Notes under the pieces: generated by a model | Told to the model about the DNA's origin: nothing | The model's database searches: none | Seen by the model: only the letters and a program-made list of their open reading frames with translations | In this document: in pieces, positions 11,705 through 15,548 of the stretch | Numbering within the stretch: position 1 is the stretch's first letter | Layout: the number at the start of each line of letters is the position of its first letter | Made by a program: the position numbers and the translations under genes | IMG/VR virus record: IMGVR_UViG_3300028840_001326 | Location: 1 to 43,864 of that record | Source of the DNA: a virus | Reading direction: 5' to 3' (one strand) | DNA length: 43,864 nucleotides

Positions 11705-11947
11705 GTGAGCAAGATCAGACCATTCTCCAACGGGAGCCAATACGCGGATTGGACGGAGAGGAACTGCGTGAGGTGCGGGAAATGGGACCCAGACAAGGCG
11801 GGGGACTGTGAGATAGACCTAGCCCTGGGCTTGGGCTACCTTGGGGACGGGCTCATTTCGGCAGAGATCGCGGACAGAATGGGCCTCCTTGAGAACCGCA
11901 GAAGCTACACTTGGGATTGTCCAGAGATCCAGAAGGGAGACGGGTGA
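11705..11947 (+). CDS. Small Cys-containing hypothetical protein
   Basis: The 80 residues start at GTG 11705, with GGAGGTGAGG just upstream. CVRCGKW near residue 21, with C34 and a C-terminal WDCPE, could give four metal ligands. It precedes the radical SAM gene and overlaps it (GTGA). A role as a partner or substrate carrier of that enzyme is conceivable but unsupported. Confidence 0.65.
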   Translation: MSKIRPFSNGSQYADWTERNCVRCGKWDPDKAGDCEIDLALGLGYLGDGLISAEIADRMGLLENRRSYTWDCPEIQKGDG

Positions 11948-12786
11948 GCGGACAGCATCTCCGCGTCTTCCCCAGGAAGACCTCGTACACGCCCACGGAT
12001 CCGGCTGTCCGCTTCGGGCCTCCAGGCCTATTTGACCGCCCGGAGTCCGTGGACGTGTCCGTAACCTTCACATGGGATATTCCTCGAGGGGAGTGGTTGC
12101 GCCACCAATGGGAGATGGTCTGTGATCGGGTGAGGATCGGCGGCCCCGCCTTCGGAGATCCAGGGGGGGCCTTCGTTCCTGGGCGGTACGTCCGCGAGGG
12201 CGTGACGATCACCTCCAGGGGCTGTCCGTGTCGCTGTTCATTCTGCTACGTTCCCAAGCGGGAGGGAAGGATCCGCGAGCTGGAGACAATCCACCCGGGG
12301 AACGTGGTCAACGACAACAACCTTCTAGCCTGTTCAAGCGATCACCTGGAGCGCGTTTGGGCCATGCTAAGAACCCAGGGGGACATCCGATTCCCTGGAG
12401 GCCTGGACGCCACGAGGCTGAAGACGGACCACATAATGGCCCTCCGCGGGCTGTCCGTGCGGGCTCTCTGGTTCGCCTTCGACTCCGGAGAGAAGTGGCC
12501 CCACGTCCAGAACGCGATCCAGCGTTGCCGCGAGTATTGGACCAGGGACCGCCTCCGCTGTTATGTCCTCATGGGCTACACGGGGGACACGATAGACGAG
12601 GCGGAGGGAAGGCTCCGTTGGGTATGGGACCAGGGGGCCATCCCGTTCGCTATGCTCTACTGTGACGACAACGGGAAGACGAGAGGAGGAGAGTGGAGGA
12701 GGCTCCAGAAGATATTTGCACGGCCCGCGATCTTGCGCGGGATCTGTAGGGACGGGAGAGATTGGAGGTCTGTTGGTGAGGCGTGA
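11944..12786 (+). CDS. Radical SAM enzyme
   Basis: This 280-residue protein contains the CxxxCxxC 4Fe-4S motif within SRGCPCRCSFCYVPKREG near residues 90-107. It should bind SAM and start radical chemistry. Downstream, FPGGLDATRL, LWFAFDS and CYVLMGYTGDTIDEAE form the partial TIM barrel strands seen in a group of phage Fe-S oxidoreductases. The substrate is unknown. In other phages such enzymes lie in replication or modification regions, as here between zinc proteins and a DNA methyltransferase, so a nucleotide or nucleic-acid substrate is possible. GTG 11944 overlaps the previous stop. Confidence 0.85.
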   Translation: MSGQHLRVFPRKTSYTPTDPAVRFGPPGLFDRPESVDVSVTFTWDIPRGEWLRHQWEMVCDRVRIGGPAFGDPGGAFVPGRYVREGVTITSRGCPCRCSFCYVPKREGRIRELETIHPGNVVNDNNLLACSSDHLERVWAMLRTQGDIRFPGGLDATRLKTDHIMALRGLSVRALWFAFDSGEKWPHVQNAIQRCREYWTRDRLRCYVLMGYTGDTIDEAEGRLRWVWDQGAIPFAMLYCDDNGKTRGGEWRRLQKIFARPAILRGICRDGRDWRSVGEA

Positions 12787-13087
12787 CTGGAACAGGAGAA
12801 TGGAAGACAGGAGGAAGCAAAAGGGCTTCCGCGGGTGGTACGTCCAGAGGAATCCCCTCCGGAGCCGCTGGTGTATCCTCTCCAAGGGCGATGTTATCGT
12901 CTGTGAAGCGTGGAACGAGTCCACGGCGCACCTCCTATCCGCGGCCCCTGAACTCTACGAGGCGGCGAAGGAGGCCCTGGGAGCCCTCGAGGACCTGGAC
13001 GGGACCCACCTCAGGATCCACGAGAAGGACCTCTACCCGCTCCAGGAGGCAATAGACAAAGCGGAAGGAGAAGGAGGTGGCGCGTGA
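12776..13087 (+). CDS. Second small protein of the SAAPELL type
   Basis: The 103 residues start at GTG 12776, with GGAGG seven bases before it. It has a basic N-terminus, GWYVQRNPLRSRW and then LLSAAPELYEAAKEAL and AIDKAE, resembling the product of 11188-11493. Its TGA at 13085-13087 overlaps both the methyltransferase start (13077) and, by the usual GTGA overlap, the start of the overprinting frame at 13084. Function unknown. Confidence 0.72.
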   Translation: MRRDWNRRMEDRRKQKGFRGWYVQRNPLRSRWCILSKGDVIVCEAWNESTAHLLSAAPELYEAAKEALGALEDLDGTHLRIHEKDLYPLQEAIDKAEGEGGGA

Positions 13088-14222
13088 GTTGGCATTATTT
13101 GGAGGGGCAGGAGGAGGCATTCTGGGAGGGATCCTCCTTGGATGGCGCACCGTCTGTGCTGTTGAACTTGATCCCTACTGTAGACGGGTTCTCCTCGCCC
13201 GACAGCGGGACGGAGTCCTCCCAAGGTTCCCGATCTGGGACGACATCCGCACCTTCGACGGGCGACCATGGCGCGGATCCGTGGACGTTGTCTCCGGAGG
13301 CTTCCCCTGTCAGGACATCAGCGCGGCAGGGAAGGGGGCAGGGATCAAGGGGGAGAGGTCTGGGCTCTGGACCCATATGGCACGGGTTATCCGTGAGGTG
13401 GGACCAGGAGGCGTATTTGTGGAGAACGTGCCAACTCTCACTTCTAGGGGACTGGGAACCGTTCTTGGGGACTTGGCCGAAATGGGGTACGATGCGGAAT
13501 GGGGAGTCCTGGGAGCGGACGACGCCGGAGCCCCTCACAGGCGGAAGCGGATCTGGATTGTGGCCTACGCCCAGGGCAGGGAAGACCACGGACGAGACGG
13601 AGGAGGCGTGGAAGGCGCGGCAGGAGGAGGGGAAGGTGGCCACGCCTCCCCTCTCCTTGGCTGTCAAGATGTGGCCGACGCCCAACGCTCCCAACGGGGG
13701 GCAGATGCTACCCAGGGACGCGGTCCAGAAGGGGGAGGCCTTCTACCACAAGGGCCGCAAGTGTCAAACCACGCTACAACAGGCGGTGAAGTTGTGGCCG
13801 ACGCCAACCCAGGACGCGATCTTCGAGAGGAAGAAGAAGTATGCCCAGGGCGGGACGCCCCTCTCCATGGCGGTCCAGAAGGAGGAGGCGGAGATTATGG
13901 CGGAGGTCAAGAACGAGGCGGCAATGTATTGGGAGGCTCAGACATGGCCGACGCCAACGGCGGGGGACGCGAAGGGTTTAGGCAATCGGAACCTGGAGAG
14001 GAGCAAGGCCCACGCGGGGACTTCCCTCACGGATGCGGTGAGAGGAGGACAGGCTCCCAGGCGCCAGGGGGTTGGTGGGAAGTTGAACCCGACGTGGGTA
14101 GAGTGGCTGATGGGGTGGCCTCTAGGGTGGACAGATTGCGAGCCCTTGGAAATGGACAAGTTCCACAGGTGGCTCGACTCGCACAAGTTCTCCTAACCTT
14201 GCGCTTCTACGATAGCCCGTGA
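13077..14222 (+). CDS. DNA (cytosine-5) methyltransferase
   Basis: This 381-residue protein has the C5-methyltransferase motifs in order: ALFGGAGGGILGG (SAM loop, I), FPCQDIS with the catalytic Cys (IV, about residue 78), VFVENVPTL (VI), APHRRKRIW (VIII) and RLRALGNGQVPQVA (X). The region between VIII and X is Gly-rich with repeated VADA, unusual for a recognition domain. It would modify phage or host DNA against restriction. GTG 13077 has AAGGAG six bases upstream. A second open frame (13084-14196) covers nearly all of it and looks coding as well. Confidence 0.85.
   Translation: MARELALFGGAGGGILGGILLGWRTVCAVELDPYCRRVLLARQRDGVLPRFPIWDDIRTFDGRPWRGSVDVVSGGFPCQDISAAGKGAGIKGERSGLWTHMARVIREVGPGGVFVENVPTLTSRGLGTVLGDLAEMGYDAEWGVLGADDAGAPHRRKRIWIVAYAQGREDHGRDGGGVEGAAGGGEGGHASPLLGCQDVADAQRSQRGADATQGRGPEGGGLLPQGPQVSNHATTGGEVVADANPGRDLREEEEVCPGRDAPLHGGPEGGGGDYGGGQERGGNVLGGSDMADANGGGREGFRQSEPGEEQGPRGDFPHGCGERRTGSQAPGGWWEVEPDVGRVADGVASRVDRLRALGNGQVPQVARLAQVLLTLRFYDSP
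13084..14196 (+). CDS. Overprinted phage protein (MSW...WPTPTA...EWLMGWPxGWTD type)
   Basis: This 370-codon frame lies inside the methyltransferase gene at +1. Its GTG has a perfect AGGAGG at 13072-13077 and forms a GTGA overlap with the preceding stop, the standard coupling in this genome. The product begins MSWHYLEGQEEA, has TWPKWGTMRNGE, four WPTP repeats (about residues 160-290) and ends with VEWLMGWPLGWTD and MDKFHRW. From memory, these features recur in many uncharacterised phage proteins. In its second half, codons are the genome's usual AAG/GAG/CAG/GCG set, whereas the methyltransferase frame there is Gly-rich. Each WPTP is the shadow of VADA. Function unknown. Confidence 0.65.
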   Translation: MSWHYLEGQEEAFWEGSSLDGAPSVLLNLIPTVDGFSSPDSGTESSQGSRSGTTSAPSTGDHGADPWTLSPEASPVRTSARQGRGQGSRGRGLGSGPIWHGLSVRWDQEAYLWRTCQLSLLGDWEPFLGTWPKWGTMRNGESWERTTPEPLTGGSGSGLWPTPRAGKTTDETEEAWKARQEEGKVATPPLSLAVKMWPTPNAPNGGQMLPRDAVQKGEAFYHKGRKCQTTLQQAVKLWPTPTQDAIFERKKKYAQGGTPLSMAVQKEEAEIMAEVKNEAAMYWEAQTWPTPTAGDAKGLGNRNLERSKAHAGTSLTDAVRGGQAPRRQGVGGKLNPTWVEWLMGWPLGWTDCEPLEMDKFHRWLDSHKFS

Positions 14223-14300: not shown

Positions 14301-15548
14301 ATGCCAAAGGCTCCCATACGAGTGGTCCAGAAGCAACTCTCCGACCTATCCCCAGACCCTGAGAATCCCCGCACCTTGTCTCCTGAAGCACGCCAAGGCC
14401 TCCAGGCCTCCCTCGAACGGTTCGGCATGGTCTCCCCTATCATCTGGAACGAGTCCACGGGAGAGGTGGTGGGCGGCCATCAGCGGCTGAAGGTCCTCCA
14501 GGACCTGGGCGTGGAGAAGGTCCGCGTGGTAGTCTGGAACGGGAGCAAGGAGGAACAGAGAGCCCTCAATGTGAGCCTGAATAATCCCGCGATCATGGGG
14601 GACTGGGACGATCAGGCCCTGGGGGACCGCCTCGAGGAGATCCGCGAGAGCATCGGGGACGAGGCCTTCCTCTCCCTCCGTCTCGAGCAACTACGGCAGG
14701 AGATAGAGGACGATCTCCCACTAGAGGGGAACACAGACCCAGACGATATTCCAGAAGACGCGGGCGAGGAGACCAAGACCAAGCCCGGGGACCTCTGGAT
14801 CCTGGGACCCCATAAGCTTCTATGTGCGGATGCCGGCGATCCGGCGGCGATCCAGCGGCTGATGGACGGACGCGTGGCCCGTCTGCTCGCGACGGATCCC
14901 CCCTACGGCGTGGACTTCGACGGGCTGAAGTACGAGACGGACGGATCCGTGGGGCGCAAGGACTGGGGGAAGATCGAGGGAGATGCCCTCGAGGGAGACG
15001 CCCTGCGGGAGTGGTTCGCGGGCGTCCTCGCCCTGTGGTTGCCCCACCTCGATCCCCAGGCCGCGGTCTATATCTGGTCTGCCCCTCTGGAGCCGGGGTA
15101 TGCTCTCCTTCAGGCTATCAGAGACGCGGGCCTCCATGTCCAGGCTCAGATCATCTGGGCCAAGAACTCCCTGATCCTGGGACAAGCGGACTATCACTGG
15201 AAACATGAGGTCTGTTGGTACGCCTTCCAGAAGGGGGAGAACCATCGATGGCTCGCGGGCAGGGACAAGACCACGGTATGGGAGGTTGACCGCGTTCCCG
15301 CTCAGAAGTACGCCCACCCAATGCAGAAGCCAACGGAACTCTACGCCCGCCCGATCCAGGCCCATACTCACCACGGGGAGACCATCCTGGACCTGTTCGC
15401 GGGCTCAGGGACCTCCCTGATCGCGGCGGAACAACTGGGACGGATCTGCTACGCGGTGGAGATAGATCCCAAGTTCTGCGATGTTGCGGTCCAGCGTTGG
15501 GAGGAGTTCACGGGCAAGGGAGCCCACAGAATGGGAGGGAAGGCATGA
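14301..15548 (+). CDS. ParB-domain fused to N6-adenine/N4-cytosine DNA methyltransferase
   Basis: In this 415-residue protein residues 8-75 form a ParB/sulfiredoxin-like domain (LSPDPENPRTLS..., VVGGHQRLKVL). Then comes an acidic linker, then a beta-class methyltransferase with DPPYGVDF (motif IV, about residue 197) before LDLFAGSGTSLIAAEQLGR (motif I, about residue 360). This order is typical of phage orphan methyltransferases. It methylates adenine or exocyclic N of cytosine in DNA; the site recognised cannot be read. GGAGG precedes ATG 14301. It overlaps the next small gene by 4 bases. Confidence 0.9.
   Translation: MPKAPIRVVQKQLSDLSPDPENPRTLSPEARQGLQASLERFGMVSPIIWNESTGEVVGGHQRLKVLQDLGVEKVRVVVWNGSKEEQRALNVSLNNPAIMGDWDDQALGDRLEEIRESIGDEAFLSLRLEQLRQEIEDDLPLEGNTDPDDIPEDAGEETKTKPGDLWILGPHKLLCADAGDPAAIQRLMDGRVARLLATDPPYGVDFDGLKYETDGSVGRKDWGKIEGDALEGDALREWFAGVLALWLPHLDPQAAVYIWSAPLEPGYALLQAIRDAGLHVQAQIIWAKNSLILGQADYHWKHEVCWYAFQKGENHRWLAGRDKTTVWEVDRVPAQKYAHPMQKPTELYARPIQAHTHHGETILDLFAGSGTSLIAAEQLGRICYAVEIDPKFCDVAVQRWEEFTGKGAHRMGGKA

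Follow-up and report, generated by a model that had tools for sequence, protein, structure and literature searches.

The window analysed here, the whole of a 43,864-nt stretch of viral DNA (IMG/VR record IMGVR_UViG_3300028840_001326), contains a cytosine methyltransferase gene which, in all likelihood, specifies a C5-cytosine DNA methyltransferase of two subunits that share the same DNA, alpha being read in frame 0 and beta in frame +1 (Table 1). The evidence consists of the two open frames, the homology of beta to target-recognition domains (TRDs) that other enzymes carry in frame, the way in which the conserved motifs are partitioned, selection that is specific to each frame, and the conservation of the beta start. 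Alpha and beta probably join into one enzyme, and we infer that beta is translated, that the heterodimer forms and methylates DNA, and that phage DNA is protected from restriction.

Two open frames, their starts and their relatives

As the sequence-only reading had described, the +1 frame is open for 370 codons; it covers 97% of alpha and, with an overlap of about 1.1 kb, the locus would indeed be a very long dual-coding gene. The ribosome-binding site that had been assigned to this frame was also recovered: AAGGAGG lies 6 nt before the beta GTG, which is 7 nt past the alpha start and overlaps the TGA of the upstream ORF (13085-13087). The spacing of the alpha GTG to its own GGAAGGAG is about the same. 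Motifs I, PCQ, ENV, VIII and X could all be placed in frame 0, as had been claimed for the methyltransferase frame, and the four WPTP boxes together with GKLNPTWVEWLMGWPLGWT in frame +1.

Table 1. Features of the overlapping alpha and beta frames (positions in the window)
Feature	Position	Strand	Remarks
Alpha, C5-cytosine methyltransferase, 381 aa	13077..14222	+	Frame 0; motifs I-VIII and X, Gly-rich spacer between VIII and X, without motif IX
Beta, 370 aa	13084..14196	+	Frame +1; N-terminal overprinted extension, putative TRD, motif IX
Shine-Dalgarno-like GGAAGGAG, alpha start GTG 13077	13063..13070	+	Sequence
Shine-Dalgarno AAGGAGG, beta start GTG 13084	13071..13077	+	Sequence; 6-nt spacing
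Motif I, LALFGGAGGG	13089..13118	+	Frame 0
Motif IV, GGFPCQ, catalytic Cys	13296..13313	+	Frame 0
Motif VI, FVENV	13416..13430	+	Frame 0
Motif VIII, APHRRKRIWIVAYA	13530..13571	+	Frame 0
TRD block, four WPTP boxes (13561, 13672, 13795, 13945)	13561..14076	+	Frame +1
Motif IX, GKLNPTWVEWLMGWPLGWT	14077..14133	+	Frame +1; aligned with M.HhaI 272-290, same spacing KLxP..MGxP
Motif X, RLRALGNGQVP	14133..14165	+	Frame 0; in DNA order directly after motif IX
Beta N-terminal extension, overprinted on motifs I-VIII	13084..13560	+	Weakly selected, predicted disordered

When the gene was shuffled synonymously 5000 times, with the alpha protein and its codon counts held fixed, 0.26% of the shuffled versions had a +1 frame as open as the real one (mean 4.35 stops). 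Taken alone this result is only suggestive for the +1 frame, and the homology and selection tests presented below are the decisive ones for beta. Judged by the codon usage of the phage's other genes, frame 0 was preferred for codons 1-180 (0.13-0.22) and frame +1 for positions 13617-13976, where the +1 frame scored 0.27 and 0.39 against -0.09 and 0.02 for frame 0 (mean of the other genes, 0.20). The codon usage of the window itself switches frame at the TRD and, since it favours +1 over 13617-13976, the claim that the second half of this frame shows codons typical of the genome holds.

Alpha matched PF00145 (E 4.7e-31, over residues 6-168 only) and PHROG_363 (E 8.6e-70). Beta matched PHROG_1008 (E 5.7e-32), and searches of Pfam and NCBIfam with it returned no family. 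Both PHROGs are called DNA methyltransferase; PHROG_1008 matches the +1-frame product, and their common label obscures the fact that a single piece of DNA can give rise to a member of each family. A search of IMG/VR with beta gave at least 598 confirmed related stretches among the 600 matches listed. Scanning bacteria and archaea, with each species represented by one genome, yielded 329 confirmed stretches spread over many phyla, and from each scan we looked at the 80 best loci. Of the 80 best bacterial and archaeal loci, 79 had the TRD in +1 with respect to the catalytic domain; the other (L277) had an interrupted catalytic ORF.

When relatives were checked for stops and frameshifts in the second frame, beta was open in 129 of 131 distinct loci and truncated in two; alpha was truncated in four, one locus was broken in both, and the two frames were open at the same offset in at least 126 of these divergent loci. 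This constancy, the +1 position of the TRD in 79 of the best 80 bacterial genome loci and the purifying selection on both proteins (see below) make it highly improbable that the gene is a decaying methyltransferase with frameshift mutations and no active enzyme. One copy does fit that description: in the E. coli prophage locus PCP07014 (L089, 1501-2262) both overlapping frames are interrupted by stops at nearly the same place, and the gene is annotated as a pseudogene with 'internal stop'. Among the other annotated relatives seen, public annotation mostly records alpha only. Pseudomonas phage phPA-G (L083, 1501-2229) is annotated with the beta frame only, as hypothetical, and Paenibacillus phage Shelly (L092, 1195-1899) with both frames and the remark 'g55 internal gene'.

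An NTG at the beta start was kept in 129 of 131 relatives, against 58.1 expected when the codon usage of the flanking genes predicts the T. The alpha codon overlapping it was AAT, CGT or CAT in 129 of the 131, with T in third place throughout, which gives beta an ATG or GTG; the beta start is constant while the alpha residue at that place varies (Asn, Arg or His). In 108 of 131 loci the nearest alpha start preceded that of beta by 4 nt (the pattern NTG-A-ATG). In four loci (L006, L025, L063 and L064) a short segment (MSWLISKALM / MAWTISNAMMKAYENS) extends the beta frame upstream of its usual start; in L063 the usual start codon is lost (CGA gives GAG) and the upstream segment supplies a start. 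In a second lineage, of the EQLTLY/F type and found in Firmicutes and gut phages (L087, 2177-2920; L092, 1195-1899; L096), the +1 recognition protein starts inside the gene, near motif IV.

The TRD and motif IX in frame +1

Judged by its sequence, beta is a real protein, and its second half is the TRD plus motif IX that alpha lacks, belonging to the same enzyme family; the idea of a second protein unrelated to the methyltransferase does not survive this assignment. A profile of the +1-frame TRD matched single-chain actinophage C5 methyltransferases in frame, between their motifs VIII and X, in 41 loci (E down to 4e-20), Mycobacterium phage prophi104-2 gp17 and its relatives among them, as well as +1-frame regions in 30 other loci. 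Profile-profile comparison (hhalign) of the beta TRD with the in-frame TRDs gave a probability of 98.4% and E 6.8e-15, and PHROG_1008 joins the beta of the window with residues 209-412 of single chains. The end of beta, GKLNPTWVEWLMGWP, aligned without gaps to residues 272-286 of M.HhaI, RKLHPRECARVMGYP, which are C5 motif IX (shuffle P 2e-5). The motif IX box was present in 120 of 131 betas and in a single alpha, and motif X in 119 of 131 alphas and in five betas. In alpha, motifs I, IV (PCQ), VI (ENV), VIII and X stand together in one frame, which marks it as a C5-cytosine methyltransferase; the TRD and motif IX are outside this polypeptide.

The first PTP box is placed where motif VIII ends (median 1 nt), and 26 nt separate the motif IX box (+1) from the GNG of motif X (frame 0) in 108 of 109 loci. 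Seen at the DNA level, the gene is a normal C5 methyltransferase with its TRD-IX part one frame over. Such strict colinearity of VIII, TRD, IX and X, at the same distances, would also suit programmed frameshifting, by which ribosomes would make one chain, leaving frame 0 for +1 once past motif VIII and returning to it ahead of motif X, and single-chain versions are known (L085). However, two shifts would be required, a change from 0 to +1 differs from the common -1 slippage, and in Mycobacterium phage Wile (gp75/gp74) and the IMG/VR locus L042 the gene is split, beta having a start or ORF of its own. Under frameshifting neither a beta start nor an open N-terminus of beta would be needed, but 129 of 131 relatives keep the start, and the N-terminus is both open and weakly selected. 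We therefore consider frameshifting unlikely and two separately translated subunits the better account.

Very unlikely, too, is that beta is an unrelated overprinted phage protein (for example, an anti-restriction protein) that merely shares this DNA: its C-terminal half is homologous to in-frame C5 methyltransferase TRDs, it carries the motif IX absent from alpha, and alpha has no selected TRD of its own. The part that would agree with an unrelated protein is the N-terminal half lying on motifs I-VIII, which has no known homologue outside the overlap and shows weak independent selection. Lack of homologues outside the overlap, as in a gene overprinted de novo, is true only for beta residues 1 to ~160, and fails for the TRD/IX part. 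Asked whether they ever occur without the overlapping methyltransferase, the two parts gave different answers: the TRD/IX part does, in frame or as a separate gene, but the N-terminal 'MSW' part was never seen in this way.

Residues 1-100 of beta are without a clear role and are predicted to be disordered (pLDDT ~40, AlphaFold2), and the AlphaFold2 model of beta (pTM 0.27) was too uncertain for a fold search. For a single-chain relative the predicted fold was that of a C5 methyltransferase matching M.HhaI, with the LPTP region unstructured, which leaves the fold of the TRD unexplained. A PDB sequence search with beta found no relatives; its matches there to zyg-11 and fructose dehydrogenase were set aside as chance, and the TAL-effector matches of the A2 profile, with no stretch past the threshold alone, look like repeat bias.

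Selection in each frame

We classed the substitutions of 48 disjoint close pairs by their effect in both frames, using DNA alignments with an identity filter; a codon-aligned version of this analysis misaligns the fast TRD, which blurs the values. The pairs are disjoint and phylogenetically not independent, the NN-based ratios are the safer ones because the SS class is small (31-127 sites), and the evidence for selection is that of the family, since the window is without close relatives. Over codons 1-160 (motifs I-VIII), omega_alpha was 0.17 (NN/SN) and 0.08 (NS/SS) and omega_beta 0.67 and 0.30, and the unused +2 control frame gave 1.12 and 0.91. Phylogenetic inertia as the source of the conservation of the beta N-terminus was ruled out by this control frame, with its omega of about 1. 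In the TRD, omega_beta was 0.11-0.14 and omega_alpha 1.14-1.49, and the rates at alpha codon positions 1, 2 and 3 were 0.24, 0.057 and 0.035; this pattern is the signature of a gene read in +1. Over the last 45 codons the omega of both frames was 0.21-0.25. Because the patterns differ between motifs I-VIII, the TRD and the tail, the selected frame changes along the gene. The suggestion that both frames may be under selection was right in that both are selected, but the selection is not uniform: alpha is dominant over motifs I-VIII, the TRD is under selection in beta only, and the tail in both. In the same way, the Gly-rich stretch that had been noticed in the methyltransferase frame between motifs VIII and X is present, but as an unconstrained spacer (omega_alpha 1.14) and not as a recognition domain.

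With the alpha protein fixed and the codons shuffled, the profile score of the beta N half (first 160 codons) dropped from 203 to 137, with 23 of 24 cluster representatives above all shuffles, and that of the C half from 134.5 to 21.0 (24 of 24). Shuffling with the beta protein fixed lowered the alpha score from 290 to 102 over the first 160 codons and from 98 to 42 over the rest. These scores and the omegas of the 48 pairs reveal the excess constraint per frame for which the sequence-only reading had advised looking and, together with a frame open in 129 of 131 relatives, they uphold its view of the second frame as a conserved protein.

The same tests bear on the possibility that the +1 frame is a by-product of a GC-rich gene, in which biased codons leave the frame open and the alpha motifs mimic conservation. 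Part of the N-half similarity is indeed forced when the alpha protein is fixed (a null score of 137 out of 203), and when one half of the window gene is shuffled the frame is sometimes still open; yet only 0.26% of the full-length shuffles were open, and the observed scores were above those of the shuffles. In the TRD it is the third positions of beta codons that take the substitutions, the +2 control has an omega of about 1 in the N region, and the TRD has homologues that are read in frame. The by-product explanation, refuted by the 48-pair omegas and the in-frame TRD matches, has next to no probability.

Known two-polypeptide enzymes, arrangements among relatives and a proposed mechanism

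M.EaeI is a two-polypeptide C5 methyltransferase like M.EcoHK31I, whose small polypeptide has its coding sequence in a different frame within that of the large one, both being needed for methylation; in the window, beta likewise lies in another frame within the alpha gene. The arrangement is already accounted for by a published kind of enzyme, M.EcoHK31I, with two polypeptides of which the small one has motif IX. The best reading of the locus is a heterodimeric C5 methyltransferase, a kind with a precedent, whose specificity subunit would be written over the catalytic gene. In the part of PMC3404938 that deals with M.EcoHK31I (citing Lee, Kam and Shaw 1995), the large polypeptide has motifs I-VIII and X and the small polypeptide motif IX, the same partition as that of the window, with alpha carrying I-VIII and X without IX and beta carrying IX; the enzyme has also been called 'naturally split' (PMC3439449). 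The window differs from M.EcoHK31I in that the beta start is 7 nt downstream of that of alpha (in most relatives 4 nt) and beta extends over 97% of alpha, in that some 160 beta residues are overprinted on motifs I-VIII, and in that the gene is a phage gene with no recognised restriction partner. The same part of PMC3404938 places the predicted TRD of M.EcoHK31I in the large subunit, whereas that of the window is assigned to beta by homology and selection.

A second natural two-subunit C5 methyltransferase, M.AquI (alpha/beta), is split in the variable region (PMC3404938), and Wile gp75/gp74 and L042 are split similarly, motifs I-VIII being followed by TRD-IX-X. A second subunit with the distal TRD, IX and X is found in L042 and Wile gp74 but not in the window, where alpha retains motif X and the second subunit, instead of following the first gene, is written over almost all of it. 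The single-chain C5 methyltransferases of actinophages and prophages (for example, prophi104-2 gp17) have a homologous LPTP-box TRD, motif IX and catalytic domain but, unlike the window, all in one frame and one polypeptide.

The relatives differ in layout, with ARRANGEMENTS seen. Form (A), overprinted and with motif X in alpha, is that of the window and most relatives, including Acinetobacter phage ABMM1, Pseudomonas phPA-G, Salmonella S9-5, Paenibacillus phage Shelly, Lacticaseibacillus R9.1 and Escherichia SHAK7693. In form (B) alpha ends after motif VIII and a +1 ORF has the TRD, IX and X (Mycobacterium Wile gp75/gp74, Gordonia Float294 62/61 and IMG/VR L042). Form (C) is the single chain (Mycobacterium phage prophi104-2 gp17), and form (D) has LPTP repeats in +1 with IX and X in frame 0 (Rhodococcus ReT1v). 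That the TRD is found in different frames relative to the same catalytic domain is enough to show that it is a real coding module. In a few relatives alpha breaks off after motif VIII, so alpha may sometimes do without motif X. Three actinophage genes (L101, 2505-4096; L108, 2475-4057; L139) have LPTP repeats in both frames, in +1 just past motif VIII and in frame 0 before IX/X, and may each offer two recognition modules from one gene.

We propose that both starts (GTG 13077 and GTG 13084) would be used on one mRNA and, being adjacent, would supply alpha and beta in a fixed ratio. Alpha would bind AdoMet and perform catalysis (motifs I-VIII), with motif X held on a flexible, unconstrained Gly-rich spacer; beta would contribute the target-recognition domain (WPTP-box repeats) and motif IX, and by associating with alpha would give it DNA specificity. 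The order I-VIII, TRD, IX, X in the DNA is that of an ordinary C5 methyltransferase, the TRD-IX block alone having moved to +1. The beta N-terminus may mainly place the beta start beside that of alpha, because it is predicted to be disordered, is weakly selected and starts elsewhere in other lineages.

To our knowledge, phages and bacteria rarely have same-strand overlaps of about 1.1 kb in which selection can be demonstrated for each frame. In this family the selected frame switches within one gene, and the switch can be read straight from the positions of the substitutions. In the searchable open-access literature we found precedents for split methyltransferases but nothing on an overprinted arrangement in phages, and no description of a near end-to-end overlap with twin starts, of its spread or of the single-chain/split/overprinted series. 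Many genes annotated as complete phage cytosine methyltransferases probably encode half the enzyme only, and cloning, specificity prediction and annotation based on the long frame alone would fail. The system is tractable for studying the origin of overlapping genes and the dosing of split enzymes, with natural variants that number in the hundreds and with forms that are single-chain, split or overprinted. More tentatively, and at a little under even confidence, we suggest that phages and bacteria hold a large, largely unrecognised class of C5 methyltransferases with the specificity domain in a separately translated, overprinted subunit, where twin starts would let specificity be changed or dosed apart from catalysis, the beta N-terminus would be a new protein born by overprinting on catalytic motifs, the gene order would record single-chain/split/overprinted transitions, and some genes would have TRD repeats in both frames.

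Of the neighbouring genes examined, none was recognised as a restriction gene, which makes an orphan, protective methyltransferase likely. Upstream (11911-12783, + strand) is an ORF with a weak radical-SAM match (PF04055, E 1.4e-4, CxxxCSFCY motif). Directly downstream (14301-15548, + strand) lies a second DNA methyltransferase gene (N6_N4_Mtase, E 4e-22; weak ParB_N match), and the phage thus carries two methyltransferases of different types side by side.
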